IMG/VR virus record: IMGVR_UViG_3300021478_000007
Location: 1-43,691 of that record
DNA: 43,691 bases
Strand: one strand, 5' to 3'
Source: a virus
Shown here: piece by piece, positions 128-39,658 of the stretch
Layout: each line of letters starts with the position of its first letter
Numbering within the stretch: position 1 is the stretch's first letter
Program-made: the position numbers and the translations under genes
Notes under the pieces: generated by a model
The model's database searches: none
The model's input: only the letters and a program-made list of their open reading frames with translations
What the model was told of the DNA's origin: nothing

Positions 128-1244
128 GGGGGCTTCAGCAGTAACGGAAATAATGTATATCGATGGGTTTTTCTTCCTGCTCGTCTCTTCTTCGCAGACA
201 ATTTACGCTTCGAATGCGTTCGATGCGACGACATGGCCACCGCTACAAATCAAGATCATCAATACATTCGCCGACAATGTGATTGGCATGCAGGCCGACC
301 ATCGCTTTTTGTGGATTTTCGGGGCGAAAGAAACTGAAGTAGATTACGACGCTGGCTCTTTCCCGTTCCCGCTGCAAGCTATGCCATCTGGCTTCATTGA
401 GCAGGGCATTGCGGCCCCGAATGCCACTGTGCAACTCGATAATGCGATTTTCCTTATTGGCGCTCGCAACGATCTTGGGCAGGCTATCGCTTATCGAACT
501 GAGGGGTTTTCGTTCAAGCGTATTTCTACTCACGCCGTTGAGACGGCCTGGCAACAGTATCCGCAGATTGCTGATGCGATAGCCTTTCCGTATCAGGAAA
601 ATGGCCACTCTTTCTGGGTCATTACATTTCCTTCCGGGCAAGCTACTTGGGTGTACGATACTTCTACGAGTTTTTGGCATAAGCGCGGAGCGTTCAATCC
701 GGCGCTTGGCATATTCGCTCCAATCCTGCCAATCTGCCATACGTTTAATTTCGGGAAGCATCTCGTTGGCGATCGTCAAAGCGGGAAGACTTATCAAATG
801 TCTTCGCCGGTTCGTGCCGGCGGTGGTTGGAATTTCGTTACCGATAACGGGGCATTGATTCATCGCTTGCGCCGAGCGCCACATATAAATGTCGAGCATC
901 AATGGCAGCGTTACAGTTCGCTGGAGATTTATTTGGAGACAGGGCTTGGGCCGACGCCGCCACTGCTTGATGGTGCTGGCAACCCGAGAGCGCCACAGTT
1001 GACGCTGCGCTGTTCGCGTGACGGTGGGCATACGTGGGGAAATTCACGCGATACGAGTTGCGGGCAAGCCGGAGAGTTTTTGCAACGCGCTACGTTCCGG
1101 CGGCTGGGGCGTGCTCGTGACATGGTGTTTGAAGTTTCTTGCAGTGACCCCGTACCGTGGCGCTTTATCGATGCATACGTGAACCCGAAGACACAGCCAT
1201 CGCCACGCAAGCGCTTGACGCATCAATATGCGGAGGTCGCATGA
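3..1244 (+). CDS. Packaged-DNA stabilisation (tail accessory) protein, P22 gp10-like; C-terminal part
   Basis: This is the distal part of a gene whose start lies at 43252; joined across the circle junction it encodes about 518 residues (P22 gp10 is about 472). It should form part of the tail hub that closes the portal and holds the packaged DNA. The assignment rests on the N-terminal motif in the other half, NADAQECMNL, followed closely by a STPGL motif, typical of Phage_stabilise proteins, and on its place two genes after a gp4-like protein. This part is a beta-rich chain with no membrane segment. The stop TGA overlaps the ATG of the next gene by four bases. The ATG-less left edge is only an artefact of where the circle was cut. 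Confidence 0.85.
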   Translation, partial: FAACPQQLAIISAGLLYSYQLATQTVPPIIAGTLSGPIAGPWGASAVTEIMYIDGFFFLLVSSSQTIYASNAFDATTWPPLQIKIINTFADNVIGMQADHRFLWIFGAKETEVDYDAGSFPFPLQAMPSGFIEQGIAAPNATVQLDNAIFLIGARNDLGQAIAYRTEGFSFKRISTHAVETAWQQYPQIADAIAFPYQENGHSFWVITFPSGQATWVYDTSTSFWHKRGAFNPALGIFAPILPICHTFNFGKHLVGDRQSGKTYQMSSPVRAGGGWNFVTDNGALIHRLRRAPHINVEHQWQRYSSLEIYLETGLGPTPPLLDGAGNPRAPQLTLRCSRDGGHTWGNSRDTSCGQAGEFLQRATFRRLGRARDMVFEVSCSDPVPWRFIDAYVNPKTQPSPRKRLTHQYAEVA

Positions 1245-4410: not shown

Positions 4411-6068
4411 CGATAACGCCAGATTCCGCGCCCACTGTCACGATCACTCCTGACAAGGGGCCGACTATCGGGCCGCGCGAAGAGTTTTCTTCTACTGTGC
4501 CCGGAGCAAAGTTGGCCCACGATCTAGCGCAGAAACTTGAAGACTGGTCAAACTCGACACAAACAGGCCGCGAACAGCACCCAGTACAGGCAGCAGTTGG
4601 TGATTTCGCTCGTAACTTGAAGCAGTATCTAGTCGGCGGCGAAGGCGGCGGCGTAAATCTCAAAACTGGCTTTGCAACAAACCCTGTAATAGGGGCGGTC
4701 AGTGGAGTGCCGGAAGAAGAGACGCTTAATTCAGTACGACAAGGCTATCAGCTTCTTAAAGTTGGAGCGAAAAAGTTAGCTAATGCTCCCGGCGCGGCAG
4801 TTCAAGCAACAGAAGCTGGACGAGCGATTACGCAAACGATGGCGCCGGAAATAGCCAACGCTCCGCTTTCAGCAACTCGCGGGGCATCGACAACGGGCGG
4901 CGCAGCGACAACGAGCGTCACGAACGCCGATGTTATTCAGCACGCGCACGACATGGGGATTAAGCTTACGCCAGCGCAAGCGCTTCAAACTTCTGCTGCG
5001 AAGTCAGAACAGGCTTTCGGGGAAGAAGCTCTCTTAACAGGTAGTAAAATAAAAGAAGCCGCAGCCGTCGAACGTAGTAAACTAGCTGACGAAGTAGCGA
5101 AGTTTCAAGACAAAATCGACCCGCAGCGAGTCGGCCTTTCAGCAGAATCTACTGGTGAGCACTTGCAGAATTCCGCTGATATAAGCCGCTCAGTTCTAAA
5201 AGATAATGTCAACAATGCTTACGCAGATGTAAAAGCGCAGCAAGCTAACCTTGCCGGAGATGTGCAGGGACCGCTACAGAAACTGATTCACGATGAAACT
5301 TTCGCTCGGCAGCCGAATGCTGCTGTAGAGCAGCCAGTATTTCAGACAGGTGCAGCAAAGACAGCGATAAAAGACATCCAGGATATGCTTTCTGATCCTG
5401 CAATGCAAGGGAGGCAATCAGTTCAGTCGTTGCGAAACTTGCGCACGACGCTGCTTGAAAAAGGAAATGACTACGGCGCAAACGCTCTCAGCGATTCTGG
5501 TCAGCGTATCTATAAGCTTGCGGCTTCTCGCGTGGATGACGCAATCATGGACGCAGCAAAAGGAACCCCTTTCGAGCAAACTTTCCGAGATGCCGGACAG
5601 CAGAACGCTAAATTGCAGCAGCTTTACAACCAAAAAGGCTCCCCACTCTATCGCATACTCAACACAGACGACCCAGCGGCTGTTACCAACGGAATCCTCA
5701 ATCGCTCATCGGTCCACGAAATCGAAACATTGAAATCAGAGAAATTCGATCTCGGGCCGCTTGCACGTCAAGCCGTTGAAGATATTAAAGATGGTGGTTT
5801 CAAAGTAACAAATGCCGGACTTGGCGGGTATCCTGACACGTTCCTGCGCTCACTGCTGGGGCCGGATGCGACGAAAGAGCTTTATGCAAAAGCAGAGATT
5901 GCGCGGCGGCTAGCTGAGAATTACAACCCTTCCGGTTCTGGCAAATTAGTTCTCGGCGCTTCGCAAGTCGTTCACCCCGTGGCAGCTGTAGCTGCGCAAG
6001 GTGCACGCTTGCGCTCAATGCCTCAACCGGCGCTTAATTTCCTGCTAAAAGGCGGTTCAAACCCGTGA
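4383..6068 (+). CDS. Third ejection-type internal virion protein (P22 gp16-like position)
   Basis: ATG 4383 follows a strong AAAGGAGG site. The 561-residue product opens with a repeated VTITPD element (residues 9-25), then becomes an Ala-rich helical protein with several coiled-coil stretches between residues 170 and 400. A C-terminal apolar patch (VVHPVAAVAAQGARL) could touch a membrane. It lies last in the ejection gene set and directly before the fiber genes, where P22-like phages keep gp16. No lytic transglycosylase motif is visible. The stop overlaps the GTG of the next gene as GTGA. Confidence 0.58.
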   Translation: MAATDDNAVTITPDSAPTVTITPDKGPTIGPREEFSSTVPGAKLAHDLAQKLEDWSNSTQTGREQHPVQAAVGDFARNLKQYLVGGEGGGVNLKTGFATNPVIGAVSGVPEEETLNSVRQGYQLLKVGAKKLANAPGAAVQATEAGRAITQTMAPEIANAPLSATRGASTTGGAATTSVTNADVIQHAHDMGIKLTPAQALQTSAAKSEQAFGEEALLTGSKIKEAAAVERSKLADEVAKFQDKIDPQRVGLSAESTGEHLQNSADISRSVLKDNVNNAYADVKAQQANLAGDVQGPLQKLIHDETFARQPNAAVEQPVFQTGAAKTAIKDIQDMLSDPAMQGRQSVQSLRNLRTTLLEKGNDYGANALSDSGQRIYKLAASRVDDAIMDAAKGTPFEQTFRDAGQQNAKLQQLYNQKGSPLYRILNTDDPAAVTNGILNRSSVHEIETLKSEKFDLGPLARQAVEDIKDGGFKVTNAGLGGYPDTFLRSLLGPDATKELYAKAEIARRLAENYNPSGSGKLVLGASQVVHPVAAVAAQGARLRSMPQPALNFLLKGGSNP

Positions 6069-8071
6069 AACACTCGCTTAAAACTACGTTCCTTGCGCTT
6101 GGGGCGTTCGTAGGCGCGTTATTTTTTGCGCCTAGAGCAGTAAGTCAAATACCTGTAGCCCTAGCCCCTGTCGCTCGTCAGCAGTTCCTCTCGCCTACGG
6201 GCGTTCCGCTCGCCAATGGTTGCATTTTCACTTACGCAGCAGGCACTTCGACGCCACAAGCTACGTATAGCGAGCCAAGCGGCACGTTCCCAAACACAAA
6301 CCCCATTATTCTTGATGCTGGCGGCTTTGCTTCGATTTGGTTGCCGAATCAATCGTTTCGCATCGTTATTTTCAGCAATGGTGGCTTGAATTGCGCTACC
6401 GGCAGTCAGCAGTACGCAGTCGATAACGTATCGGCGTATCAAATCGTCAACTTGTTTACAAATACTGTTTTCTTCGGCGTGACGAGCTTCCCTCCAGGCA
6501 CTCCGGGAGAGCTAATCTATCGCAGCGACCTTGGGCGCTTCTGCTTTTTCTATTCGATTTGGGATTGCATTCCCGGCCTGGCTACGACTGACACGTTTAC
6601 GAACAAGACGTTCTCGGGCGGCACAATAACAGGCACAACGATAAACAACCCGACGATAAACAACAATTCCAATACTGGTAACGTAGCTAATAAATATGCT
6701 ACGGCTTCAGCGTATCGCTATGTTGATGGTGCTGGCAATGATTCAAACGATGGCTTGTCGCCAGGTACAGCTTATGCCACGCCACAGAAATGCCTTGCAG
6801 ATATCACAGCACTTGGCGGCGGCACTTGTGACGCTCGCACGCTCTACACTTATACTTATGGAGACGTGCAAGGCCAGATCAATGTTGGGCAGAACTCGCC
6901 AGCTGTAATCGATACTCTGTTAGTACCTCCATACGGAACATGGACTTGCAACTTGTCATCTGGCAGCTGTTTGGAAGTTTTCAATTTTGGATCTGTTATA
7001 GGTACAGGCTCCGGCTCTGGAATCCAGTTTCAAATCATTGCTTCCGCGACTTCGAGTGTTGCAGATGTATGTGGAACAGATGCGGCTCCGGTCGGTGGCG
7101 GAGCTTTCGATACTATTCGTGGCCTTAAGTGCATTGCTCTCTCTGGCGCAACCGTTTCAGTAGCAGTTATCGAACTGCAAAAACTCTTCGACATAAATTC
7201 CATTAGTGATATAAGCGCAGTTGCCCAGAATACGAATACCAAAGCTCTATACGCTCATGGCTTATGTTGCAGCACTGGGCTTGCTCGCGTTGCCGGGTTT
7301 GGAAACAATGCAACTGGCAATGTACCGTGTACGTTCGGCAGCGCAACTGATGCTATGAATGGCGCAGTAATTGACAATATAAGCTGCACGCACGCTGGTT
7401 CTACTAAAAATCAAATTGTTATTTTTCAGTCTATGACTGGAAACACCGGTGCTCATTACAGCGATATTTACACCGAAGCAGACGTAGCACTGGACACGAA
7501 CACGCCGATTATGGCAATAGCAAATGCTTCTAGCCTCTCGGACGTGATCGATAACGTTCACGTTGGGACAGATGCAGCCGGTGGTGCTTCGACGCGCTGT
7601 ATAGTTGATGTAGCCTCCGGTTCAAGCGTTACGCTGCGCAACATTCAGCAGATCAATGCAACTTGCGCAATCAACGACCACAATCCGGGGCGTGGCATCG
7701 TAACGCTCGGGGCTTTCGGAATTATTACCGATTACAGCACGAATAACGGGGCATGCTGCACTATTGGAGCATTCAGCAACGGAAGTCGCGTCCCAGTAAC
7801 TATTGCTTTTGGGACTGCGCCAATGACTACGGTCAACATTCCTACGGGGAATTGCGGGACTACTGTCACTGTTTCAGCTCCTGGCGTGCTGACGACAGAC
7901 ACGATTGACTTTGCTTTCAATTCTGCTATAGCCCCGTCGAATCCAGCAGTTTTTTTGAACGTAGTTCGTTGGCCGACTGCCGGAAATGTGAACTTCGCTT
8001 ATTGCAACCCGGATTCAGCTTCACAGACACCATCAGCTGCAACGATTAACTGGAGCGTAAGACGCCCATGA
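6065..8071 (+). CDS. Secreted fiber/tailspike-like protein with beta-helix domain
   Basis: The start is GTG 6065 in a GTGA overlap. The 668-residue product has an N-terminal signal peptide: two Lys and a His-containing head, an apolar core, and a likely cut in AVS|QIP near residue 28. Next comes a domain typical of phage tail-fiber starts (residues 36-105: QQFLSPTGVPLANGCIFTYA, then a NPIILDAGGFASIWL strand). From about residue 217 a YVDGAGNDSNDGLSPGTAYA motif opens a right-handed beta-helix of the pectate-lyase type. This fold is used by tailspikes that bind or cut surface polysaccharide. A signal peptide on such a protein is odd, because virion proteins normally assemble in the cytoplasm. 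Catalytic residues cannot be assigned. Confidence 0.75.
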   Translation: MKHSLKTTFLALGAFVGALFFAPRAVSQIPVALAPVARQQFLSPTGVPLANGCIFTYAAGTSTPQATYSEPSGTFPNTNPIILDAGGFASIWLPNQSFRIVIFSNGGLNCATGSQQYAVDNVSAYQIVNLFTNTVFFGVTSFPPGTPGELIYRSDLGRFCFFYSIWDCIPGLATTDTFTNKTFSGGTITGTTINNPTINNNSNTGNVANKYATASAYRYVDGAGNDSNDGLSPGTAYATPQKCLADITALGGGTCDARTLYTYTYGDVQGQINVGQNSPAVIDTLLVPPYGTWTCNLSSGSCLEVFNFGSVIGTGSGSGIQFQIIASATSSVADVCGTDAAPVGGGAFDTIRGLKCIALSGATVSVAVIELQKLFDINSISDISAVAQNTNTKALYAHGLCCSTGLARVAGFGNNATGNVPCTFGSATDAMNGAVIDNISCTHAGSTKNQIVIFQSMTGNTGAHYSDIYTEADVALDTNTPIMAIANASSLSDVIDNVHVGTDAAGGASTRCIVDVASGSSVTLRNIQQINATCAINDHNPGRGIVTLGAFGIITDYSTNNGACCTIGAFSNGSRVPVTIAFGTAPMTTVNIPTGNCGTTVTVSAPGVLTTDTIDFAFNSAIAPSNPAVFLNVVRWPTAGNVNFAYCNPDSASQTPSAATINWSVRRP

Positions 8072-11000
8072 AGAAACTTTTACTACTGCTTTTATTCGCC
8101 ATTCCTCTCTACGGGCAAGGCGCACGCTTCGAAGGCAACGTTGTGCAGGTGGCTACGATTGCAGGCTTCACCGATGTATTGACTTTCGTCTCTACGGCGC
8201 AAGTCACTCTTTGCACTTACCCGGCAAACGCTGTTCCTTGCACGAATAAAGCGACAACGTACACACTGCCAACGCTTGCTACAGCTTGCTCGACTGCGCA
8301 GCAGTTGACGCTTCCCGGTTCAAACTCTTGTACGTCAAGCACAGATGCATTCGGCAATTGGGGCGTCTGGATTCCTTCCGGGACTTTCTCTTATACGATC
8401 ACGATTGCCGGCGTGAACTTAGGCCCGTATACGTTCTCTGCTGGCGGCACTGGCAATGGCGGAATTATCAACGTTACTGTACCGCCATCTGGTACTTGCT
8501 CTGGTGGCGCAACGAATCAGCAAGTGATCAGTACGGGCGTTATTTACAGCTGTCAGGGCGGGACGTGGGGCGCAGTCGGCGGTGGCTTGTCTAACTTGAC
8601 TCCTGGCCAAGTCCCCGTAGCTAACGGCTCGAATACGGCCAATGGTTCTGTTGCTCCTTCTACAACTGTTAACGGGCAGACATGCGCTCTTGGGGCTAGT
8701 TGTACTGTTGGTGGTGGCTTGTCGGGCCAGACGCCGGGGCAAATCCCTGTAGCCAATACCGCGACTACAGCCAACAGTTCGGTACCTGCTTCAACAACTG
8801 TGAATGGTCAGGTCTGCGCTCTCGGCTCTACTTGTAGCGTAACAAGCGGCTCAGCTACTGCCCCATTCGTAAGCGCATCTTCCCCGTCGGCTTCAAGCGG
8901 CACAGTGCGGCTAGCAAATAACGAAACCGGGACTTGTTGGCGCAACAATGCCAATACAGCCGATGTTTGCATGACGCTCAACGCACTCAATCGATTCACT
9001 TATGGCGGAAAGTACAACCTTGGAGATGATTTTGTCCCTTACGGGCCAAACCCTTATCACGATCTGCGTATAGATGGCGCTCGCAAGCAGATAGCTAATG
9101 CTGCTCCGGCTGTTCCGAGTGTCACGATAACAATGGCCAATGGGGCTAACACCGGAACCATTTCCACAAATACCTGTGCGTCACAGACGCCGACAACTTG
9201 CTTTCAAATCAAAGACGGCGTGACCATCGTCGGCCCCGGCGCAGCGCATGCGATGACGACGCCAGTTGCCCCGACTTTGACGCCTGTGCTTAACGGCGTA
9301 GTGACTGGCGTTGCTTTGGAGACGATAACAGCTCCTGCTGGCGCAATTACTTACAATGCTCAGATTTTTGAAGTCAACAAGTTCGGCGGTTATACTGCTT
9401 CTAGCCCTACAGCTACGATTATAACCAGCAACACGCTAGGGATGCAGCATGTATCGATAGCATCTTGCGCACGATCGAATAACGTAACGACCTGCACTAC
9501 TTCAGCTCCACACGGCTTGCCGATTGGCTGTATCGCAACTCCTAGCCTCAATGTTAATCGTTGCCCAACGGTTTTGCAGAATCTTTCAGGCATGTCTGAC
9601 TTGTCATTCGCTGGTGAAAAGCCGATTCAAAGTGTTGCAGATAATACACACTATACTTATACAGACAATGTGGATACTCGCACCGGCGCTTCGACTTCTG
9701 GAACTGGAGGCATTCTCTACTGGGGTCAAGCGGTTCATTATGTCCTTCCTGCTCACACCGGCGATGGCATGTTCTACATTGCCTGTTCTGACCGTGTAAC
9801 GCCTGGCGTATTCAAAGTTGTCGGCACATCTTGGCCAGTAAATTTTAACGGCGGAATCACAGACGGGGTTTTGGAAATTAACGACTGGGGCACAACGATG
9901 AATGGCTCCAGCCCGACCATGCCGCTGTGGTCGATTCCGACTACGTGCCCGACTGTTGCTTCCGCCGACATGCTCACGACTACTGTTACGAACGTGAGCG
10001 GGAATACGCTGACGTTTGCTTCAAGCGCAGCTAACGCAGCTTGCGCAGGTGGCGGATGCTCTATCGTTATTGACACTGCCCCGATTCTTGCAGCGATACC
10101 TACGAACGCTTACCCGGTTTTCTTTGCTCCAGATGGCAGCAATAGCAACAACTATTACATTTTCAATTCCACAGTCGATTTCAGCGCAAGTAATGCAGGG
10201 CCTTCGCTCATCGGCGGGTGGGTACAACTTAACGCCCCGTTCATGCTTGGCAACTCTACGTGGGTTGGTGGAGATTTCTTTACAAATAGAGACACTCCTT
10301 CGTTTGGCTACGGCAGCTACCCCGTGATCACTTGCTCCGTTAAGCCTTGCGTGTGGTTGGCGGCTTCAAATAGTCAGCAGGTTGAGTTTGGGAGATTTGA
10401 AATCAACATGTCTGGCGGCGGGGGGAACATCGCCATTCTAATGGACGGAGGTGGCGGAGGGCCTGGACCTTATCTTCACGACCTTCAAGCCAGTGTTGGC
10501 AGTGACTTTACTGGCTTCGCACTGCTTACTCGCAACGGCTCCCCGTTTCACGGCTCACGCATAAATTTCTTTGCTAATAACACGCCCACCGATGGCGACA
10601 CTTTCACTCCGCTCGTAGTACTTGAAGGCGGAGAAGTCCGTCTCGATCAGATAAATACATCCGGTCGTGGATTTTTTACGAGAGGCGATCTTTCTATTGG
10701 CTTTAATCACATTCAGGGTGGCATCGAGCCGATTATTACTACTACCGGGCCATCCACTGGTGGCAACGAAGGAATAACTCTGCAACTTGGGTGGAATGGT
10801 GGCATTGAGTTCGACACGATTGCTCATGCGGGGGTTTCTAACCAGCCAGGGTTGGGGTCAGCGCAAGTTGGAGTTCAATTTGTTGGCTCTAATCCAGGAG
10901 GCTCTCCGTCTTCTGGTGTTCCTCTTTATACCGGAGCACCTGTTAACATTGGAGGTGGAACATGCCAAGACCCGACTTACGGCGGCTTTTTCTCAAATCC

Positions 11001-14000
11001 CTACCCCTGTGCTAATGCTAAATTTTCTTCCCACATTGAACTGGTCAACACTTTTTCGTTCTTTACAGATACTCTTCCGAATACTGTAACCTGTTCAGTC
11101 GGCGCAGGTGGTGGAATAACAATAAGCAGTCAACTTGAGTTTTACGTCATTCCTGTATGGGGCAATGGAGCAGAAGGGGTAGCTTCTAAGATTTCTCCGT
11201 TCTGCCCTACCAGCAGCGGTCAGCAGACAGTCACTGTGAATTGGACACAACTTCCAATACCTCCACCATTTTGGAACATCTATCGGATAACTGCACCTGG
11301 CAATGGCCCTATACGCATACGCAACACTGGTGGCGTTTTAGCGACTTCCTGCAACTCTCCGCAGATTGCTGGCAATGTCACGAGTATCGTACTGATTAAC
11401 GATACCCCTTGTTTCGCTCCGGCCAATTCCCCCGCGGGCGGACCTACTTGGATAAAAGATTTTTCAGTAGCGACTGCTATCTTGGATCTGAATAATTTTG
11501 CAGACATTACTGAAAGTGCAACTCCTGCTAACCCGGCTGCAGGCGTCGAGCGCGTCTATGCCAACAGCACTGCTCACGGCTTGAAGTGCATCACGAGCGC
11601 AGGCAATAACTGCCTCGGCTTAAAGACGTTCAACTCTTACTCAGCGAATCACACGCCGAACATCAACGAAGATGGGATGATTGCGACTGCAACTCTAGCT
11701 TTCACTCTTCCGCATGCAATCAATAATTGGGGCTGGGACATTGTGAGCGTTGGCGGCGTTACTACGCTCACGATTGACAGTGGCAATCTCTACGTTGGTG
11801 GCGCTATCGGATCTATCACGATCCCCAACAGCCAGGGGGTCCATGCGTGGTGCGATGGGACGAACTGTTACGCTTACGGGCTTGGTAGTGGCGTTGGGGG
11901 CGGATCACCTGGCGGGACTATTAACGCCGTTCAGATGAACAATGGCGCTGGTGGCTTCTCTGCTGCCAACTCAGCTGTAGCGAACGGGACTTATATCTTC
12001 AGCGAGCACGTAGTTGCGAATGCTTCAGTTGCTGGCGCTTATACTTTACCGGGTATCGTAATAAACGCACAAAGCGGAACAACATATGTCGAGGGCTCGG
12101 GTAATACTGATTTCGACAGATTCTATCTCATTACTGCCAGCAACTCAGGGGCGCAGACGTACACACTGGGGAACCCTTCTGCTACGGGCTTCGGATCTAA
12201 CTACGGGAACGTTCTCTTCAACATCGGTACTGGAACAGTGACAGAGAACGCCAGCGGCTTTACTGTTAACGGGCTAACTTCACTCGCAACCCCGTCTCTC
12301 TGGCTTCGCTGGTTGTGGTCTAACGGCGTGAATTATACAGGCGCAGTCGTACCAACGCTCGGAGCTTTCCCGACGACTTGCACAACAGCTCTTACTATCG
12401 CATCCGGGGCATTCGGTTGCGCTGGCGCCGGAAACGTTGCTTCATGGGCCGGGGACGGGGCGCTTTACAGCAGCACGCCGCAGACAGGGACTGTCGTCGC
12501 GTCACTCGTTAATGCTGGGGCAAATACGGTCTGGGGCCGCTGCACGAACTCCAGCGGGTTGCCGAGTTACTGCCAGATCACTGACTTGATGCTGACCGCT
12601 GTAAGCCACGCAGCGCTGACGAATCAAGTGAATACGTGGGGAGCCTTCCTGCTGGATTTGTCAGCAGCTACTTTGAAAATCCCCACAGGAGCTGGGTGTG
12701 TAGCTAGCGCTTCAGCTATGATTTGCTACGATTCAACGAACAAGAATTGGCATATTTACGATAACAATACAGATTCGATTGGGCTGGGGATTGCTTCAAC
12801 GCCAGCAAACGGAAATCTCGCATCTTATCTTGTCGTTTCTGGGCAAGTACAGGCCGCTGATTCTGGCATATCGAAAGTTACCGCTTCCAATATCGTGCCC
12901 GTCAATCGCCGAAACTGCTCGCAGGATGCAGGAGCCGACGATGGATTGAAACTCCAGGCATGTCTTGTCGCCCTTGCTGCAGCCAACTCTCAGGCTGGAA
13001 TTGCAGATGCTACCGGGCTTACCGGACTCACGTGGAGCGTGAATCCTTTTGCGGCCGGTTCGCTACCTGCGAGCGGGGAAATCTGGCTTCCTCCGGGAGA
13101 TACAGTTACAAGCGTTCCAACCGTGATGCCCGATGCGTGGGTGATTAAGGGCATCGGTGGACGCTCGGTGACCGCGCAATACGGCTCAAACCTTAAGGCC
13201 AGCGCATCATGGCCAGCGACCTATTCGACTGGAACTATCACAACGCCGCTAGGAACTCCCGGCCCGAACATGGCCATCGCCACTAGCGGCTCCGCACTTA
13301 ACACCAACACAGTCGTTGGTTGTGCTTTTGTCGGCGGCACCCAACCAAACGTAACGTATGGAATTATTTCTGCAATCGGCGGAGCAAATTCCATAACGCT
13401 AAAGTGGGGCACGAACAACGGCTCAGGCGCTGTGAGTACTAACACCTTCAAAGTATTCTGCCCGATGATTGCGATGGGTGGCGGCGGAGCATCGAACGCT
13501 GGCGCTCAGTTCGGCATTCAGCTTCGCAGCATGGGCGTGGACTGCAATAACATCGCTGGCTGCGTGGACGTGCTCAACTGGTACGCACAGCAGCATAGCG
13601 AGATTCACGATACGAGCTTCAGGGGATTCACAAATATCGGCCTGCTGGTGGAAGGTCAACCGCAGAATTCCGGCCCTTACGACAATATCAACTTAGTCCC
13701 AGGTTCGAGTTGCACGGCCAGCACAATCCCGCTAGTCATCCGCGCTGCGTCACAGTCACTTGGCCAGTTCCACCGCATCACCGCTACCAAGGGTGCTTGT
13801 GCCACAAATCCAACGGTGGGCATCGACGTACAAGGCAGCTTCACCGAACTCAATACAATTGACGTGGAACAGGTCACAACAGGTATCTCGGTGGGAGCTA
13901 ACACGGCCTGCCCCGTAGCTTGCGCCAACTCAACCACACTCCCCACACAGTTCCACATCGTCAACGCCTACAACGCCTCCGGCTCAGGAACCACGGTGGT

Positions 14001-14472
14001 CGCAGTCAGCAACTTCAGCGGCACGCCAACCGATTACACGCTGACAAACATACAGGGCAACGTCACCAACACATTCACGGACACGCAGAACTCCTGCACG
14101 GAGACGGCGACGAAACTCGGAAGTTATATCGTCAATCATAGCGGGGTCATCAACGAGTCCACATCCACAACTTCCGGGTGCATGAACTCGGCCAGCGTGC
14201 TCAACACGACAACAACGAATCCCACAACGGCAGTTGGCGGGAATGCCTGCTCCGCTTCTGCAACGACTGTGACCATGACGGGCGCTACATCAACTATGGT
14301 TCCGCTCTTTGGCGCTCCATCCGATATCACGGCATCTACTGGCTGGGGTTCAAGCGGCGGGCTCGTAATCGTGGCATGGTTCACGACAAACACTCTCAAC
14401 TACAAAATTTGCAATCAGACAAGTGGAAGTATCACTCCAGGAGCGGTCGCGTGGAACGTATCGGTAAGATAA
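8068..14472 (+). CDS. Giant secreted fiber-like protein (2134 aa) with tandem repeat and two beta-helix regions
   Basis: The 2134-residue product starts with a clean signal peptide (Lys-Lys, a run of Leu, cut in LYG|QGA). It then has a carboxypeptidase-regulatory-like beta domain (residues 20-130) with Cys pairs. Two 44-residue repeats follow at residues 171-258, each opening with GGGLS and ending in a CALG..C pair. A beta-helix type region spans roughly residues 650-950, and a second one from about residue 1610 (an RRNCSQDAGADDGLKLQACL stretch) to the end. This is the largest gene here, about 15% of the genome. It is probably an adhesin or fiber acting at the cell surface. The last 22 bases overlap the next gene. 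Codon choice seems to become more C-ending in the last third, which may mark a chimeric tail. Confidence 0.75.
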   Translation: MKKLLLLLLFAIPLYGQGARFEGNVVQVATIAGFTDVLTFVSTAQVTLCTYPANAVPCTNKATTYTLPTLATACSTAQQLTLPGSNSCTSSTDAFGNWGVWIPSGTFSYTITIAGVNLGPYTFSAGGTGNGGIINVTVPPSGTCSGGATNQQVISTGVIYSCQGGTWGAVGGGLSNLTPGQVPVANGSNTANGSVAPSTTVNGQTCALGASCTVGGGLSGQTPGQIPVANTATTANSSVPASTTVNGQVCALGSTCSVTSGSATAPFVSASSPSASSGTVRLANNETGTCWRNNANTADVCMTLNALNRFTYGGKYNLGDDFVPYGPNPYHDLRIDGARKQIANAAPAVPSVTITMANGANTGTISTNTCASQTPTTCFQIKDGVTIVGPGAAHAMTTPVAPTLTPVLNGVVTGVALETITAPAGAITYNAQIFEVNKFGGYTASSPTATIITSNTLGMQHVSIASCARSNNVTTCTTSAPHGLPIGCIATPSLNVNRCPTVLQNLSGMSDLSFAGEKPIQSVADNTHYTYTDNVDTRTGASTSGTGGILYWGQAVHYVLPAHTGDGMFYIACSDRVTPGVFKVVGTSWPVNFNGGITDGVLEINDWGTTMNGSSPTMPLWSIPTTCPTVASADMLTTTVTNVSGNTLTFASSAANAACAGGGCSIVIDTAPILAAIPTNAYPVFFAPDGSNSNNYYIFNSTVDFSASNAGPSLIGGWVQLNAPFMLGNSTWVGGDFFTNRDTPSFGYGSYPVITCSVKPCVWLAASNSQQVEFGRFEINMSGGGGNIAILMDGGGGGPGPYLHDLQASVGSDFTGFALLTRNGSPFHGSRINFFANNTPTDGDTFTPLVVLEGGEVRLDQINTSGRGFFTRGDLSIGFNHIQGGIEPIITTTGPSTGGNEGITLQLGWNGGIEFDTIAHAGVSNQPGLGSAQVGVQFVGSNPGGSPSSGVPLYTGAPVNIGGGTCQDPTYGGFFSNPYPCANAKFSSHIELVNTFSFFTDTLPNTVTCSVGAGGGITISSQLEFYVIPVWGNGAEGVASKISPFCPTSSGQQTVTVNWTQLPIPPPFWNIYRITAPGNGPIRIRNTGGVLATSCNSPQIAGNVTSIVLINDTPCFAPANSPAGGPTWIKDFSVATAILDLNNFADITESATPANPAAGVERVYANSTAHGLKCITSAGNNCLGLKTFNSYSANHTPNINEDGMIATATLAFTLPHAINNWGWDIVSVGGVTTLTIDSGNLYVGGAIGSITIPNSQGVHAWCDGTNCYAYGLGSGVGGGSPGGTINAVQMNNGAGGFSAANSAVANGTYIFSEHVVANASVAGAYTLPGIVINAQSGTTYVEGSGNTDFDRFYLITASNSGAQTYTLGNPSATGFGSNYGNVLFNIGTGTVTENASGFTVNGLTSLATPSLWLRWLWSNGVNYTGAVVPTLGAFPTTCTTALTIASGAFGCAGAGNVASWAGDGALYSSTPQTGTVVASLVNAGANTVWGRCTNSSGLPSYCQITDLMLTAVSHAALTNQVNTWGAFLLDLSAATLKIPTGAGCVASASAMICYDSTNKNWHIYDNNTDSIGLGIASTPANGNLASYLVVSGQVQAADSGISKVTASNIVPVNRRNCSQDAGADDGLKLQACLVALAAANSQAGIADATGLTGLTWSVNPFAAGSLPASGEIWLPPGDTVTSVPTVMPDAWVIKGIGGRSVTAQYGSNLKASASWPATYSTGTITTPLGTPGPNMAIATSGSALNTNTVVGCAFVGGTQPNVTYGIISAIGGANSITLKWGTNNGSGAVSTNTFKVFCPMIAMGGGGASNAGAQFGIQLRSMGVDCNNIAGCVDVLNWYAQQHSEIHDTSFRGFTNIGLLVEGQPQNSGPYDNINLVPGSSCTASTIPLVIRAASQSLGQFHRITATKGACATNPTVGIDVQGSFTELNTIDVEQVTTGISVGANTACPVACANSTTLPTQFHIVNAYNASGSGTTVVAVSNFSGTPTDYTLTNIQGNVTNTFTDTQNSCTETATKLGSYIVNHSGVINESTSTTSGCMNSASVLNTTTTNPTTAVGGNACSASATTVTMTGATSTMVPLFGAPSDITASTGWGSSGGLVIVAWFTTNTLNYKICNQTSGSITPGAVAWNVSVR
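8578..8841 (+). repeat. Tandem repeat, 2 x 132 bp, inside the giant fiber gene
   Basis: Two adjacent units (8578-8709 and 8710-8841) encode 44-residue repeats sharing GGGLS, TPGQ(V/I)PVAN, STTVNGQ, CALG and a final SC/TC element. They have diverged at many third positions, so this is an old protein-level duplication and not an assembly error. The two Cys per unit are spaced for a small disulphide loop. Confidence 0.85.
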
Positions 14473-16184
14473 CTCTACTCGCGCTTCTTCTTGCTTCCAG
14501 CGTGTATGGGCAACGGGGACCAACTGTTCCCGGACGCACTGGAGCACTTGCTGCCGTCGGCTCCTTCTCCGCGATTACATTCATCGGCACGAATGGCTCT
14601 TGCCCTACGTCCGGCACGACCTGCACAGTAACCATCAGCCCGAATATCTCAGCGGGGCAAGCCGTCATCGGCTGCTTATACAGCAACACGCAGACCTCCG
14701 ACCTCTGGCTGACTGCAAATAATAATTCGGGGCAGTCGCAGCAGGTCCTTGCGGCGTTCTCGTGGAGCGACCCGGCAACGGCGCTTGGCACTAGGTCATG
14801 CCTGCTCACGCTCAATGCCGGAGCGCAAAGTACCAACATCACCTACACTCTCAGCGGAGCACAGGACTCACACGCCAATACCCTTTCTGTATGGGCCGGG
14901 ACTTACACTGGCTCTCCAGCCTACGATGGCGGCAATGCTTTGATGCAGGCCAGCGTTTCCACCGCGACAGCTACCACATTCACTCCCTCGTCGGGAAACG
15001 ACGCCGGAGTAATGGCAGTAATCGCGTTTCAGAATATCAATTCATTCACGGGCATGACCGCCGACCAGACCGGAACGCACTTCGGCTATGGGCATAATCT
15101 CAGCTTCTCCGGGGCGTTTACGCCCACCGCTACTCTCGCCGCTTCTGCAACTTTCGCCTCGAATCAGGAAGTCTACCTCGGCTATAGCGTCACACCTCCG
15201 CTTAATCAGACCGTGCAGCTATTCTCAGGAACAAACACCACTACTCCGACAGCGGCGACATTACTTACCGGCACGCTGGGCTGGACCGGCTCCACCTGGT
15301 CGGTAGCAGGCACAGGCGCGGATTTAACTTATGCGACTGCTGCCTCGATGGCGCTCCAGAATAATACCGGGCGATTGAATGACGGCAGCAATACCACTGA
15401 CGCGACGACGACCGGACTAGCCTACGCCACAGGCCACGGAAGTACTTTCGTAGCTTACGGTTCAACCACGGGCCATCCCATGACTTCCGCTCCAGCCATG
15501 AGTGCGTTCGCTTGGATACAGACGAATCACTCCGCCGCGCTGGCCGAGAACGTGGATACGCTCACGATTCACGGAACAGGGACGGACTTTGCTAACGCTA
15601 TGTCCGCTGGAAGTGGAAGCGTCAGAAGTTGGGCGCTAGAATGTCCTTCTGTAACCAACAATCAGGTCATCGTAGGTATAACGCTCAACACCCAGTACGG
15701 AATAGATATATATTACAGTTCGACGGCTCCCGCTGCGAATCTAGCCCTGAGTTCCGTAGCTAACGCATCGGGCGGTCACACGGTTTACACCGGAACGATT
15801 ACTGGCGGCGGAGCGAATGCCCTCGCCGGAAACTATTACTGGATAAACAGTTTCACGAACGCGGCAAACAACGGCGGCCCGTTCCAGGCGACAGCGTCTA
15901 CAACCACAACGCTGACTCTCAGCAACGCTTCGGGAGTAGCGGAAACCAACACGGCCAATGCCGCACAGACGAACTCCACGGGACTTGCTGGCCTTCATCA
16001 CATGAATGTGTATAACAACGCAAATCCTCCCGTGCTGCAAGGTTCGGCATCCTGCCCTGCTCTCGGGCAACAGCCGACAGTCGTGTGGATAGGAAACGCC
16101 AACGTTGCCAGCACAGCGGGATTTCACTATTACTTTGACAGCGAGAAAATTTCGCTGGATGGAACGGACCCGCTACTGCCATGA
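14451..16184 (+). CDS. Secreted fiber-like protein (577 aa), family not recognised
   Basis: I choose GTG 14451 because AGGAG lies seven bases upstream and it starts a signal peptide (a short charged head, then ITLLALLLASS, cut in VYG|QRG); an open stretch further upstream reads inside the giant gene. The mature part is Ser/Thr/Ala/Gly-rich with alternating beta patterns and few charges. One part near residues 290-500 (SMALQNNTGRLNDGS, then a SAFAWIQTNHS strand and a final HHMNVYNN) resembles a concanavalin A-like lectin/LamG jelly roll, though I am not sure. It probably works with the proteins on either side. Codon use is more GC-ending than in the head genes. Confidence 0.65.
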   Translation: MERIGKITLLALLLASSVYGQRGPTVPGRTGALAAVGSFSAITFIGTNGSCPTSGTTCTVTISPNISAGQAVIGCLYSNTQTSDLWLTANNNSGQSQQVLAAFSWSDPATALGTRSCLLTLNAGAQSTNITYTLSGAQDSHANTLSVWAGTYTGSPAYDGGNALMQASVSTATATTFTPSSGNDAGVMAVIAFQNINSFTGMTADQTGTHFGYGHNLSFSGAFTPTATLAASATFASNQEVYLGYSVTPPLNQTVQLFSGTNTTTPTAATLLTGTLGWTGSTWSVAGTGADLTYATAASMALQNNTGRLNDGSNTTDATTTGLAYATGHGSTFVAYGSTTGHPMTSAPAMSAFAWIQTNHSAALAENVDTLTIHGTGTDFANAMSAGSGSVRSWALECPSVTNNQVIVGITLNTQYGIDIYYSSTAPAANLALSSVANASGGHTVYTGTITGGGANALAGNYYWINSFTNAANNGGPFQATASTTTTLTLSNASGVAETNTANAAQTNSTGLAGLHHMNVYNNANPPVLQGSASCPALGQQPTVVWIGNANVASTAGFHYYFDSEKISLDGTDPLLP

Positions 16185-18160
16185 AAATCCTACTCATAAC
16201 CGTCTTGCTGCTCTGTTTCGTGAGTGCCAGCTATGCACAGGCCACTTACACGGCGGCTTCCTGTTCTGAAAACGACGTGCTGACCGGGGCTGGTTCGGCC
16301 TACAATGTAGAACAGGCAAGCAAGGCCGATGGCGACATCATCGCGGTTCCAGCCTGCGCGGCGGGATTGGCCATCGCTTGGACCACCTCAGTATCCACTA
16401 GCCCGACAAACTCTCTCACTTTCAAGTTCGCCGGAAGCCAGTCCATCGTAGGCGGAAACGACGTGTCGGTTATCTTCGACAACGTTTCCCACACGCCAAC
16501 CGACAATGCGATGTGGACGCTTGTCGCAGCAACAGGCAAAGTAATCCAGATCCTAGGGGTGACATTCAAAACCAACGGGGGAAGCACGCAGAGTTTCAAC
16601 GGCTCGATTCGCCTCTTTGGGCTGGGACAATTCCGGCTTGGCTACGACCACTTCGCCATGACCGTCGATGGCAAGCAAATGCTGGTATCTGGATGCGTGT
16701 ATGGCGTGATGGACCACTCGATAATGGACCTTCCCGCTGGCAGCACGGAAAACGGCGTGTTCATAGACCAGAGTGCTTGTGGCAGCGCGTCAAATGGCAA
16801 CGCAGCGTGGAACTCGGCCAGTGGATTAGGCACGGCCAACTCATTCTATTTCGAGGACGACATTTTCAACGGTGGAACGAACGGAGTCAACAATGTCGTC
16901 CCCTTTGCGAACGACTGCTCGGGCGGTGGTAGATTCGTATTCCGGCACAACACACTGAACGACGTGGAACTACAAGGCCATGCCACAGGGCACTCGAACA
17001 ATCCGCCTGACCGAAGTTGTCGCACTTACGAAATCTACCTGAATACGTTCGGCTCCATCAATTCGACTGCTGGGATTCCCTCGTCAGCGGGATTTTTCAA
17101 TACTGGCGGGACGGGGGTTATCTGGGGCAACACCATCACGGGCCATGTGCAAAAGTTCATTGCCGGACGCGAAGACCGCGCCAACAATTCCACCTATCCT
17201 CAAACCGCTCCCCCGGCAGGATGGGGATACTGCGGCACCGCACAGACAGGCAGCGCGAGCAACTGGGATGGAAACATAGATTCTAGCGGATGGCCCTGTC
17301 TTGACCAGATAGGACGCGGGCAGGGGGACTTGCTACAAGGCTCGTTTCCAACCGTCTGCAACGCCACATCCACGGATTGTACAAACTCGATATTCACAGG
17401 CCGTTGGCCGCATCAAAAGCTGGAGCCTGTTTATGAGTGGCTGGACGCCACCAGCGGCTCCGGTACGATGCCCGCAGTCTGGACGAACTCGGAAACGCAG
17501 GTATCCCAAAACCGGGACTACTATCTTGGGCAGGCGGCAGGATGCAGCGGTACGCAAACAACTGGCGTATGTTCTGGCACTGTGGCGAGCCGAGCGGCAA
17601 ATTGCACGGCAGGGCAGGGCGGAACGTTTGGCAGCAGTCCCACGGGTTCCTACGGTGTGGCCTTTTGGGAAACGGACACTCAACAGCTTGACGTGTGCAC
17701 GGCTACGAATACTTGGACAAATGCTGTCTATAAGCCCTTCACCTATCCGTATCCGCTGGTTGGCGCTACCGCGCCAATAATCAGTTTTTCGCCGCAACCT
17801 TTGGCGTTTGGACAAGCTCCTGTCGGCATGACTAGCAATTTCCTGACGCTGACTATCACCAATTCCGGCACAGCAAATCTGACAGTTTCTAGCCTAAATT
17901 CTCCGGGAGCATTCCCATTTGAAAGCGGCGGAACATGTTCGGCAACTCCTTTCACGCTAGCGCCGGGATCATCTTGCACAGAGCTGGTTGCCTTCCAGCC
18001 CGGGAGCACAGGGCCATTCAGTCAGACCAACACCACAACGGACAATACTTCAACCAGCCCTAGCCCCATTGTTGTTACAGGCAATGGCACTGGACCACCA
18101 GCCCCAGTAAGCACTATTTTCGCTCGAATACAGCTGTATAAAGGAGGAATTTGGAAATGA
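16181..18160 (+). CDS. Secreted beta-helix protein with C-terminal ASH-type domain
   Basis: ATG 16181 overlaps the previous stop. The 659-residue product has a signal peptide (KILLITVLLLCFVSASYA cut before QAT) and a Cys-rich right-handed beta-helix region (residues 60-380) with recurrent GVxDHSI, YFEDDIF and FRHNTL-like turns. Residues 530-640 form an Ig-like ASH (choice-of-anchor) domain, marked by PQPLAFGQAPVGM, then NSGTANLTV and a GTCSA...SSCTELVAF disulphide-like pair. That domain in this exact style is frequent in secreted proteins of Acidobacteriota, the main clue to the host. The many paired cysteines suggest folding in an oxidising compartment. It may be a surface-polysaccharide binding or cutting protein. 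Confidence 0.7.
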   Translation: MKILLITVLLLCFVSASYAQATYTAASCSENDVLTGAGSAYNVEQASKADGDIIAVPACAAGLAIAWTTSVSTSPTNSLTFKFAGSQSIVGGNDVSVIFDNVSHTPTDNAMWTLVAATGKVIQILGVTFKTNGGSTQSFNGSIRLFGLGQFRLGYDHFAMTVDGKQMLVSGCVYGVMDHSIMDLPAGSTENGVFIDQSACGSASNGNAAWNSASGLGTANSFYFEDDIFNGGTNGVNNVVPFANDCSGGGRFVFRHNTLNDVELQGHATGHSNNPPDRSCRTYEIYLNTFGSINSTAGIPSSAGFFNTGGTGVIWGNTITGHVQKFIAGREDRANNSTYPQTAPPAGWGYCGTAQTGSASNWDGNIDSSGWPCLDQIGRGQGDLLQGSFPTVCNATSTDCTNSIFTGRWPHQKLEPVYEWLDATSGSGTMPAVWTNSETQVSQNRDYYLGQAAGCSGTQTTGVCSGTVASRAANCTAGQGGTFGSSPTGSYGVAFWETDTQQLDVCTATNTWTNAVYKPFTYPYPLVGATAPIISFSPQPLAFGQAPVGMTSNFLTLTITNSGTANLTVSSLNSPGAFPFESGGTCSATPFTLAPGSSCTELVAFQPGSTGPFSQTNTTTDNTSTSPSPIVVTGNGTGPPAPVSTIFARIQLYKGGIWK

Positions 18161-19291: not shown

Positions 19292-19331
19292 AAAAGAAAA
19301 AAGGGGCGAATGTCCCCGCACGCGCCCCCTT
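19291..19331 (-). terminator. Intrinsic terminator-like hairpin upstream of the DUF5675 gene
   Basis: Read on the minus strand, an AAGGGG(G)GCG arm is followed after a short loop by CGCCCCTT and then TTTTCTTTT, an almost classical rho-independent terminator. The right arm and T-tract end directly at the ATG of the DUF5675 gene. It would end transcripts coming from the early block after the 19353-19871 gene, unless there is read-through. Confidence 0.6.
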
Positions 19332-35115: not shown

Positions 35116-37362
35116 ATGCTTGAGCAGAACCCAAAATCGTCGCTGCTGAAAGAGATCAGGGAGAACTACACTGCTTTCGAAGAGCAGTGGCGTCCGATTA
35201 AAGAGCAGGCCGATAAGGATATGCTCTGCGTTGCCGGCGATCCGTGGGATGCGAAAGAGCGCGAATTTAGAGATAAGTACGACCGCCCCGTAATGACGTG
35301 GGACGAGCTTTCGCCGTACGTGAATCAACTGGTCAATGACCCGCGCCAGAACAAGCGAGCAATTAAGATCAACCCGCGTGGCGCTGGCGCAACAGACGTA
35401 ACGGCGCAGCTGCGCGAAGACAAGATGCGTGAGATTCAATACAACTCTCGCGCACAGTCAGCCTTTACGACAGCTTTCCAGGCAGCAGCAGAGCGTAGCT
35501 TCGGATATTTTGGCATTAATGCTCGTCTTGTAGCCGACGGCTTGACAGAAGATCAGTACGCAGAGCTAGTAAGCACAGCGCCGGAGAAACTTTTTGAGCA
35601 AGAACTTTACATCTACAGAATTCCTAATCCCAATTCCGTACTTTTCAACCCGAGTTTCAAAGAGGCTGACGCTAGTGACAGTACGGAGTGCTTCGTTGAA
35701 GAGGGCATTCAGCGAGCAGAGTTCAAGCGCCGCTGGCCGAAAGCAAAATTCATCGACTGGGTCGGCGACTACGCAACGGAAGCGCCCGGCTGGCAAAAAG
35801 AAAAAGATGTCCGCGTAGCTGCATATTACAAAGCGATCATCAGGAAGAGGAAGTTGTATTTAATTGATGGCGAGAAAGACACAGAAGATAGAGTTGCGCT
35901 TTACGGCGATGAACTGCCGGGCGGCGAAGATAAGTGGACAGCTGACGAGAAGAACCAAAAGCGGATTCGGCGTGACCGCACAATCGAGACGCGGCGCATC
36001 AAGCAGTATTGGACTAACGGGCTGGAAATCCTAGAAGAGTCAGACGAAATCCCGATTCGTTGGATACCGATTATCCCCGTGTTCGGCAAAGAGATGTGGC
36101 TGGATGAAGGTAGCGGCCCGAAGCGTAAGCTGATGAGCTTAGTCAGGCTGGCTCGTGACCCGTACATGGCGTACTGTTACATTCGCAGCAGCGAAGCGGA
36201 AGAAGCTGGCATGGCTCCGAAGTCGCCGCTCATTGGCTACACGGGGCAGTTCGAGACTGACCGCGAAGCTTGGGAGAATCTGAACAAAATTCCACGCTCG
36301 TTCGTACAAGTTGACCCAGTAGTTGACCCGACAGACCCGAACAAACTGTTGCCGTTGCCTTCGCGCCCGCAATTCCAGCCAAACTTCCAGAGCTATGAAG
36401 TATTTGCCGAAGCTGCGCGGCGTGCGATCAGAACGGCTTGCGGTGGAAGCGACTTGCCTACTTCTGCGCAGCGAATGAACGAGAAAAGCGGCGTTGCGCT
36501 GAAAGAAATCGAAGCGAACGAGGACCGCGGCACGTTTCACTTCATCGACAACTTCAACTTTTCGCTTGAGCATGCTGGGCGTGTAATCGATGCGTGGTTC
36601 CCGTATGTGTACGACACGAAGCGCGATATTGCAATCATGAAGGCCGATGGTGAGTTCAAGACGCTCACGATCAACGACGAAGAGTACATGGAGAAAGACG
36701 CTAACGGCCAAGCTGTGAAGCAGCACTATGACGCTGTGACGGGCGATCATGGCGTTACAGTTTCGACCGGAAAAGATGCAGCCTCCCAGAGAGACGAGGT
36801 AAAAGATTTGCTTGCAAATGTTATGGGAGAATTGCAGCAAATCGCGGCTATAGCGCCGCCAGGCGCGGCGGCAAAGTTACTGGCGCTGAATATCCGGCTT
36901 GCGGCGCTTGGCCCTCTTGGCGATGAGATGGCGGATACGCTTGACCCGCCGGATGCTGAGAAAGAACAAGGGCAGGCGCTTCAGAAAGCGCAGCAGCAAG
37001 CGCAACTGGCGCAGCAAGCAATTCAAGAGCTGCAAACAGAGAATCAGAAACTCAAGCTTGAGAAAGCCGGGAAGATTATTCAGGGCGAGTACGAGAAGCA
37101 GCTCGCAACGATCAACAATGATGTCAAGGTCCTGATTGCTGAAATCAGTTCGAAAGCCCAGAAAGACAGCGAGCGCTTGGAAATGTTCTTGCAGTATTGG
37201 ACAGAAACGCACGGCGCTGCGCACGAAGTAGGGATGCAGCAAGAGCAACACGGGCACGAGCATGAACTTGCCGATAAGCAAGCGGTTTTAGCAGCACAGC
37301 AGCAACAAGCAGAAGGAGCGCAAGATGGCAACGCAGGAGCAACAGGCGGCGGCAGCGAGTAA
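35116..37362 (+). CDS. Portal protein, P22 gp1-like
   Basis: The 748-residue product is close in length to P22 gp1 (725). The start has FEEQWRPIKEQADKDMLCVA, then the conserved KEREFRDKYDRPVMTWDEL and VNQLVNDPRQNKRAIKI stretch of P22-type portals. The C-terminal 130 residues are Gln/Glu/Ala-rich coiled coil, as in the portal barrel that projects into the head. Twelve copies would form the DNA channel, bind terminase during packaging and the gp4/gp10-like proteins later. The end overlaps the scaffold gene by 38 bases. Confidence 0.92.
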   Translation: MLEQNPKSSLLKEIRENYTAFEEQWRPIKEQADKDMLCVAGDPWDAKEREFRDKYDRPVMTWDELSPYVNQLVNDPRQNKRAIKINPRGAGATDVTAQLREDKMREIQYNSRAQSAFTTAFQAAAERSFGYFGINARLVADGLTEDQYAELVSTAPEKLFEQELYIYRIPNPNSVLFNPSFKEADASDSTECFVEEGIQRAEFKRRWPKAKFIDWVGDYATEAPGWQKEKDVRVAAYYKAIIRKRKLYLIDGEKDTEDRVALYGDELPGGEDKWTADEKNQKRIRRDRTIETRRIKQYWTNGLEILEESDEIPIRWIPIIPVFGKEMWLDEGSGPKRKLMSLVRLARDPYMAYCYIRSSEAEEAGMAPKSPLIGYTGQFETDREAWENLNKIPRSFVQVDPVVDPTDPNKLLPLPSRPQFQPNFQSYEVFAEAARRAIRTACGGSDLPTSAQRMNEKSGVALKEIEANEDRGTFHFIDNFNFSLEHAGRVIDAWFPYVYDTKRDIAIMKADGEFKTLTINDEEYMEKDANGQAVKQHYDAVTGDHGVTVSTGKDAASQRDEVKDLLANVMGELQQIAAIAPPGAAAKLLALNIRLAALGPLGDEMADTLDPPDAEKEQGQALQKAQQQAQLAQQAIQELQTENQKLKLEKAGKIIQGEYEKQLATINNDVKVLIAEISSKAQKDSERLEMFLQYWTETHGAAHEVGMQQEQHGHEHELADKQAVLAAQQQQAEGAQDGNAGATGGGSE

Positions 37363-38416: not shown

Positions 38417-39658
38417 ATGGCAGAAGGCCAATATGTATTTCCCGATTGGGTGGCGGAAGAGGCTCTTCGTCTCCTGATTAACATGCTTGAAGTATGTCAA
38501 TACTTCAACACTCAGGACAACAAAGAGTTTGAGCATGAATTCCCCGTTGGTGAAGTAATCAGAAAGAAGCTCCCGCAGCGCTTTCTGATTCGTGACGGGT
38601 TGGGGTATTCTCCGCAACCGATTAACCGCATCAATACCACCGTAGCGTGCAACCAGATTTTCGGCGTTGACTTCGAATTCGATGATTTCGAGCAAGCCTT
38701 GCTGATGGAGCGCTCGAAAGAAGAGATTTCGGAGCAGTATCTGCGCCCAGCAATGGAGCAGATAGCGCAGGAAATGGATACACGCGCGGCGTTGTTCGCT
38801 TATCAGAACGCGAACAACATCGTTGGCGCTTTGGGCGTTGACCCGAACTCAGCGACAACGTTCATGCAAGCTCGGCAGCGCCTCAAGAACTTGGCTGGCG
38901 CGACTCGCGGAAGTGATAATGCGATGATCGTGCCGTCAAGCGTCTATACAGCGCTCGTCCCTGTTCTGCAAGCGCTGTTGAACCCTTCCGATGAGATCAG
39001 TGAACAGTACAAAGAAGGCTCACTTGGCCGACTTTGGAACTTTGACTGGTACGAGTCGGAATCACTCTTCCGCCATACAGCCGGTACGCTTGCCGGTGCA
39101 GCTACGCTGACGAACGCAAGCGCTGGCGGTACGACGCTCACGATCACCACGACAGGCGGCGATACTTACAACGTTGGCGATGTATTCTCGATTGCTAACG
39201 TCAACCTCGTTAACCCCATGACACGGCGTGCAGTCTCAACGATTGCGAAAACTTTCGTTATTACTGCGCCGCTTGTGGCTGCTGGTGGTGGTGCAGACGT
39301 GATCAACTTCTCGCCTGCAATTTTCCTTCCCGGTTCGCAGTATCAGAACGTTGACTCGACGCCTGCTGCTGGCGCTGCATTGACGATGTTTCCTGGCACT
39401 GCGGCTCCGGCTGGAAAGTCCGGCGCTCAGGGCCTGTGGCTCAACAAAGACGCTTTTGCGATGGTTGGCTTGAAGCTGCAATCCCCGAAAGCGACTGAGT
39501 TGACTTCACAGGCACGCGACAAAAAGACTGGCATCCCGGTTCGCTTCGTCAGAATGTATTCTCCGACGGAAAAGAAGATGACGAACAGCTGGGATACGCT
39601 CATCGGCTTCGGCCAGTACTATGCCGACAGCTGCGCTGGGAGGGTTCTCTGCGGATAA
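38417..39658 (+). CDS. Major coat protein, P22 gp5-like
   Basis: The 413-residue product is near the 430 of P22 coat. The N-terminal arm and helix (VAEEALRLLINMLEVCQYFN) are followed by an HK97-type fold. Residues 230-300 look like the inserted I-domain (TYNVGDVFSIANVNLVNPMT), and the C-terminus has VRFVRMYSPTEKKMTNSWDT, typical of the P22 coat family. It forms the icosahedral shell with the scaffold and portal. A GAGAGAAC ribosome binding site precedes the ATG. One of the surest assignments. Confidence 0.92.
   Translation: MAEGQYVFPDWVAEEALRLLINMLEVCQYFNTQDNKEFEHEFPVGEVIRKKLPQRFLIRDGLGYSPQPINRINTTVACNQIFGVDFEFDDFEQALLMERSKEEISEQYLRPAMEQIAQEMDTRAALFAYQNANNIVGALGVDPNSATTFMQARQRLKNLAGATRGSDNAMIVPSSVYTALVPVLQALLNPSDEISEQYKEGSLGRLWNFDWYESESLFRHTAGTLAGAATLTNASAGGTTLTITTTGGDTYNVGDVFSIANVNLVNPMTRRAVSTIAKTFVITAPLVAAGGGADVINFSPAIFLPGSQYQNVDSTPAAGAALTMFPGTAAPAGKSGAQGLWLNKDAFAMVGLKLQSPKATELTSQARDKKTGIPVRFVRMYSPTEKKMTNSWDTLIGFGQYYADSCAGRVLCG

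Follow-up and report, generated by a model that had tools for sequence, protein, structure and literature searches.

Predicted Sec signal peptides with glutamine at +1 on the tailspike and fiber-like proteins of a soil podovirus

Do the tailspike and fiber-like proteins of the phage represented by IMG/VR virus record IMGVR_UViG_3300021478_000007 leave the cytoplasm before they meet the virion? Tailed phages normally make their spikes and attach them within the cell, and the assembly of these phages is taught as a cytoplasmic process; in P22, the tailspike is added last during assembly, and this addition also works in vitro. The question arises from the N-termini encoded in the stretch analyzed here, positions 1 to 43,691 of the record (the window, 43,691 nucleotides), where several large products appear to open with signal peptides. 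In the following, proteins are named by the first coordinate of their genes and a slash marks a predicted cut site.

An identical direct repeat of 127 bases is found at both ends of the window (1-127 and 43565-43691), and the window is therefore a complete circle of 43,564 bases. Judged from its sequence, the genome is that of a P22/Pam1-type podovirus of ~43.6 kb. In addition to terminase and a DNA-ejection protein (phrog_598), it encodes the following core virion components:

35116..37362, + strand, P22-type portal (PF16510, E 1e-99), without signal peptide
38417..39658, + strand, major capsid protein (phrog_283, E 5e-50), without signal peptide
43252..43691, + strand, gp10-type tail hub (Hc3), 5' part, without signal peptide
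128..1244, + strand, gp10-type tail hub, 3' part, docking partner of the tailspike

The hub gene spans the join of the circle, running from 43252..43691 into 128-1244. In searches of the PDB, its profile matched the stabilization/needle-head proteins of Pan3 (8e-47) and Pam1 (3e-40), as well as Sf6 gp8 and P22 gp10, and the genome that encodes 6065 thus also holds a gp10-type hub, the docking partner of a tailspike. A product of 164 residues without leader, encoded at 1477-1971, matched the phrog 'short tail fiber' (E 1e-45) and gave no significant match in Pfam or the PDB; it is the sole candidate here for a fiber-type protein lacking an export signal. Where the tail genes meet the minus-strand genes, 18881-19321 (- strand) encodes a DUF5675 protein (PF18925, E 3e-20) of unassigned function.

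Six products of the genome open with a predicted Sec-type signal peptide followed by Gln:

6065..6145, + strand, signal peptide of the tailspike, 27 aa, cut AVS/Q
8068..8115, + strand, signal peptide of the giant fiber, 16 aa, cut LYG/Q
14451..14510, + strand, signal peptide of 14451, 20 aa, cut VYG/Q
16181..16237, + strand, signal peptide of 16181, 19 aa, cut SYA/Q
39700..39768, + strand, signal peptide of the capsid-adjacent protein, 23 aa, cut TEA/QQNFL
42439..42495, + strand, signal peptide of 42439, 19 aa, cut VLA/QQG

The N-termini read MKHSLKTTFLALGAFVGALFFAPRAVS/QIPVAL in 6065 (GTG start), MKKLLLLLLFAIPLYG/QGARFE in 8068 (ATG start), MERIGKITLLALLLASSVYG/QRGPTV in 14451 (GTG start, AGGAG upstream), MKILLITVLLLCFVSASYA/QATYTA in 16181 (ATG start), MKNYFKLALLAALIAFFGITTEA/QQNFLG in 39700 and MKKLLLALLLLLLPVIVLA/QQGQTS in 42439. 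The initial annotation had described Sec-type leaders with Gln at +1 on four consecutive products, and these four N-termini are as described; four is nevertheless too low a number, as 39700 and 42439, which lie outside the range it considered, also qualify. A basic n-region, an apolar core and small residues at -3 and -1 are present, the last being weak (Gly at -1) in 8068 and 14451. When a strict home-made rule was applied to 35 genes, with shuffled N-termini as control, five were signal-peptide-like, compared with a shuffled mean of 0.46 and a maximum of 3. These five comprise four of the six products listed above and a lysis-region gene at 19892-20533 (- strand), whose product has a leader- or anchor-like N-terminal segment, MKLLQAIALLAVSWVCVELALA, without Gln and is possibly a spanin or holin partner. 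8068 and 14451 fell below the strict cut mainly because of the Gly at -1. For 8068, which is weak by the rule, evidence from its family compensates, while the signal peptides of 14451 and 16181 are predicted from their own sequences alone. The cysteine richness noted in the initial annotation was also found: the six mature proteins contain 107 Cys in 4467 residues and the eleven other proteins of the virion cluster 22 in 4154, and the number of Cys is even in five of the six.

In the tailspike, the predicted cut falls exactly before a head-binding domain:

6065..8071, + strand, tailspike gene, product predicted to be exported, 668 aa
6146..6440, + strand, head-binding (virion-docking) domain, mature residues 1-98, with the pair Cys26-Cys83

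In tblastn searches against phage records, 6065 matched annotated tail spike and tail fiber proteins from residues 26-46 onward, a stretch that begins at the cut site or a little beyond it. In the proteins of Xanthomonas phage PBR31, Rhodoferax phage P26218, phage DSL-LC05 and two uncultured podophages, the initiator Met either opens the domain or stands only a few residues away from its start (the five N-termini are MSVNLSPLAG, MAVQIAPLP, MATLLPEGK, MPAVSLSPV and MAVVSPTAK), and the N-terminal part of the PBR31 protein has been described as apparently the virion-binding domain (PMC10975493). A profile of 54 homologues identified 7eeq, 'Tailspike head-binding domain', in the PDB (E 2.7e-12) and the Pan3 tail spike, and a Foldseek search with an AlphaFold2 model of the domain (pLDDT 77) returned the tailspikes of Pan3, Pam1, P22 and Sf6, including in-situ complexes with the hub. 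The body of 6065 gave no sequence match to solved structures. Known P22-type tailspikes are without signal peptide, and this is where 6065 departs from them. Its orthologues carry the cut sites A/QVAVAP, A/QVTVAP, A/QTPVAL and A/QVPVTL.

Among the 54 homologous domains, 32 lie behind a signal peptide (SP+) and 22 at or near the start Met (SP-). The SP- domains from IMG/VR usually have an SD-like sequence before the start, and the SP+ leaders mostly end A/Q[VT]. The two classes also differ in their cysteines. In the 53 homologues from IMG/VR, domains starting at Met contain 0-1 Cys and leader-bearing ones nearly always exactly two; over the whole alignment, exactly two Cys were found in 29 of 32 SP+ rows and in none of the 22 SP- rows. 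The Cys columns shift as pairs, with 28+96 in 21 rows, 28+93 in four, and 30+96, 30+94, 81+104 and 24+27 in single rows each. Paired and co-moving cysteines are what a disulfide formed in an oxidizing compartment would look like. One of the search patterns for domain homologues included a Cys-containing motif; among loci found by a Cys-free motif the contrast stays (21 of 24 SP+ vs 1 of 29 SP-), as counted by an automatic classifier that placed L058, leader-bearing on inspection, in the SP- class. The SP label changes only ~4 times on the tree, so the SP and Cys counts are not independent and few separate events underlie the link between them; Fisher tests on the Cys counts and on the co-occurrence of signal peptides take no account of kinship, and an independent-pairs test on the tree points in the same direction, with no power to reach significance at ~4 SP changes. 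The three SP+ domains without the Cys pair (L050, L052 and L099) are of proteobacterial type, having GGK or GGS for GGC and no Cys, yet they follow an A/Q leader; they may be recent independent gains of a signal peptide. Leaders were found on 28 of 157 other same-strand ORFs in the SP+ phages, vs 2 of 113 in the SP- relatives.

The other five proteins predicted to be exported are encoded as follows:

8068..14472, + strand, Cys-rich fiber-like protein, 2134 aa, N-terminal module of ~120 aa conserved, remainder variable
14451..16184, + strand, protein predicted to be exported, 577 aa
16181..18160, + strand, protein predicted to be exported, 659 aa, with a C-terminal HYDIN/ASH-type Ig-like domain
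39700..40557, + strand, protein predicted to be exported, 285 aa, directly 3' of the major capsid gene, phrog_1101 tail protein
42439..43245, + strand, protein predicted to be exported, 268 aa, between 41588 and the tail hub

Relatives of 8068 mostly have only the N-terminal module in common with it, and in most of them a signal peptide is followed by QG[VIFS]R. A conserved N-terminus joined to a variable remainder would be the usual layout of a virion-attached fiber. The first five members of the 39700 family share an invariant A/QQN behind a variable apolar core. Nearly all of ~50 further members are leader-bearing, and in most of these QQN or QT stands at the predicted cut or adjoins it (motifs QQNFL or QTIL); one relative, L164, is without leader. 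In dozens of loci the gene directly follows the capsid gene, and the protein is possibly a head or tail fiber. Its fold gave no match in the PDB at E <=0.001, and its best match in a viral library was an uncharacterized phage protein of 280 aa. The relatives of 42439 carry leaders too. In 16181, residues 532-633 form a HYDIN/ASH-type Ig-like domain (Pfam PF22544, over the cut-off). For 14451 no relatives were found in IMG/VR, and for 16181 none in IMG/VR or the plasmid collection. A docking domain was identified in none of these five proteins.

The conservation of leaders on orthologues in related phages, which the initial annotation had proposed as a check, was thus found for the 6065, 8068, 39700 and 42439 families, with a conserved cut motif in the first three; 14451 and 16181 have no orthologues found to compare. 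Because orthologues keep their leaders, the cut motif outlasts a diverged core and the Cys pair tracks the leader, the proposal that fiber and tailspike proteins are exported via Sec is strongly supported at the level of sequence, and we consider functional export highly probable.

The Gln at +1 also bears on the host. Among predicted signal peptides, Gln occupies this position in 14 of 19 on Granulicella plasmid pACIX901 (L168-L173) and in 4 of 9 on Acidisarcina plasmids (L178-L181), giving 18 of 28 for Acidobacteriota; the corresponding count is 4 of 8 for a Spirosoma plasmid, and E. coli and Pseudoalteromonas together gave 0 of 16. An acidobacterial host is therefore likely from the difference between Acidobacteriota and the proteobacteria. 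The codon usage of the window correlates with that of the plasmid samples at 0.64 for Acidisarcina, 0.54 for Granulicella, 0.40 for E. coli and 0.35 for Spirosoma. A search of genome contigs for the host gave one weak match, in a Hyphomicrobiales MAG, to a protein start without signal peptide, and Shine-Dalgarno usage was uninformative as a host test (15 of 27 starts, 12.5 by shuffling). The Q-rule, Gln at +1 after cleavage by signal peptidase I, has been given as specific to Bacteroidetes (PMC5837995, PMC10653852), and Acidobacteria are unmentioned in the main text of both papers. Given the 18 of 28 plasmid signal peptides, the rule seems to hold in Acidobacteriota too, for which no direct precedent was found in the open-access literature.

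Based on these results, we favor a reading in which Sec export of the tailspike and fiber-like proteins is followed by docking on the hub at lysis, and hold it to be fairly probable. Capsid, portal and tail hub would be built in the cytoplasm, as in P22-like podoviruses, while the tailspike 6065 and the fiber-like 8068, 14451, 16181, 39700 and 42439 would be passed to Sec. Signal peptidase I would cut the leader and expose the Gln, which would probably cyclize to pyroglutamate, and the exported proteins would acquire their fold and their disulfides in the periplasm. Once lysis disrupts the inner membrane, tailspikes would dock via the head-binding domain on the gp10-type hub of particles complete but for their spikes; the receptor-binding apparatus would therefore join outside the cytoplasm. 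Sequence supports the presence and conservation of the signal peptides, the position of the docking domain after the leader of 6065, the Cys pair linked to the SP and the leaderless hub. We infer the cleavage, the cyclization of the Gln, when and where docking occurs, and the virion destination of the other five proteins. Incorporation into the virion after export is, taken by itself, reasonably probable.

Of the four fates that the initial annotation offered for the exported proteins, attachment to the virion beyond the inner membrane is favored because mature 6065 starts with a head-binding domain and the genome encodes a leaderless gp10-type hub; the free-protein options are less likely, and surface coating, superinfection block and free depolymerase activity are possible side roles without positive evidence. 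That the proteins are exported and never bind the virion, acting instead as free depolymerases in the periplasm or outside the cell, as surface coats or as blockers of superinfection, would agree with the surface modification proposed for Q-rule proteins of Porphyromonas gingivalis phages (PMC10367356) and with the lack of an identified virion-docking domain in 8068, 14451 and 16181. We nevertheless regard it as improbable, since 6065 retains its head-binding domain and the genome its hub, 39700 adjoins the capsid gene in dozens of phages, and every large fiber-like protein recognized in the genome has a signal peptide; if none of these joined the virion, the 164-residue product of 1477 would be the last fiber candidate.

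Two further explanations place assembly inside the cell. An uncleaved leader could serve as a membrane anchor or internal attachment segment, with assembly in the cytoplasm or at the inner membrane, and the leader of 8068, short, weak by the rule and with Gly at -1, speaks for this. This is very unlikely given that A/Q and the residues that follow are kept whereas the apolar core diverges, that Gln at +1 agrees with the signal peptidase substrates predicted from plasmids of Acidobacteriota and Bacteroidota, and that a Cys pair suits an oxidizing compartment. Export might instead be partial, the assembled fraction being cytoplasmic, either retained or made from an internal start. Two GTG codons in 8068, at +10 and +12 past the cut and with an SD-like sequence upstream, could provide such a start; no in-frame ATG occurs within 60 codons past the cut of 6065, 14451 or 16181, nor of 8068, and several genes of one phage keep their signal peptides, and we give partial export still less credence.

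Export followed by docking at lysis combines parts that are already known, namely the tailspike head-binding domain, the gp10-type hub, Sec leaders and the Q-rule. With P22 gp9, Sf6 gp14 and the Pam1 and Pan3 tailspikes, 6065 shares the fold and sequence family of the docking domain, and the hub and portal types of these phages are also common to this genome; those tailspikes begin with the docking domain, whereas 6065 has a Sec leader in front of it and an additional Cys pair. The filamentous phage proteins pIII and pVIII are virion proteins with Sec signal peptides and are assembled at the envelope, but these phages leave the cell by extrusion across the membrane and do not lyse it, whereas the present phage is a tailed one with dsDNA and a capsid formed in the cytoplasm. 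The Q-rule leaders of P. gingivalis phages (Matrishin et al. 2023, PMC10367356) expose Gln as here; they are carried by proteins of unknown function in a Bacteroidota phage group, whereas the present ones are found on podovirus tailspikes and capsid-adjacent fiber-like proteins. Gln at +1 is likewise common to the Bacteroidetes Q-rule and the leaders described here, and the plasmid samples extend it to Acidobacteriota. No report of Sec leaders on docking-domain tailspikes or on virion proteins of tailed phages was found in the open-access literature.

This soil phage and dozens of its relatives thus appear, from their sequences, to send spikes and fibers through the secretion machinery of the host. 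We see about an even chance that a whole group of tailed phages finishes its virions outside the cytoplasm, with spikes and fibers that the secretory pathway of the host exports, oxidizes and pyroglutamylates and that dock on spikeless particles only once the inner membrane opens, the head-attached 39700 fibers likewise. If spikes do join outside the cytoplasm, disulfides and other chemistry of the periplasm become available to receptor-binding proteins, particles would be non-adhesive until lysis, and finished heads might take spikes from other phages in the same cell. The results also suggest that the Q-rule reaches beyond Bacteroidetes, and a signal peptide followed by Gln on a docking domain is a signature that may help to assign environmental phages to Acidobacteriota or Bacteroidota.
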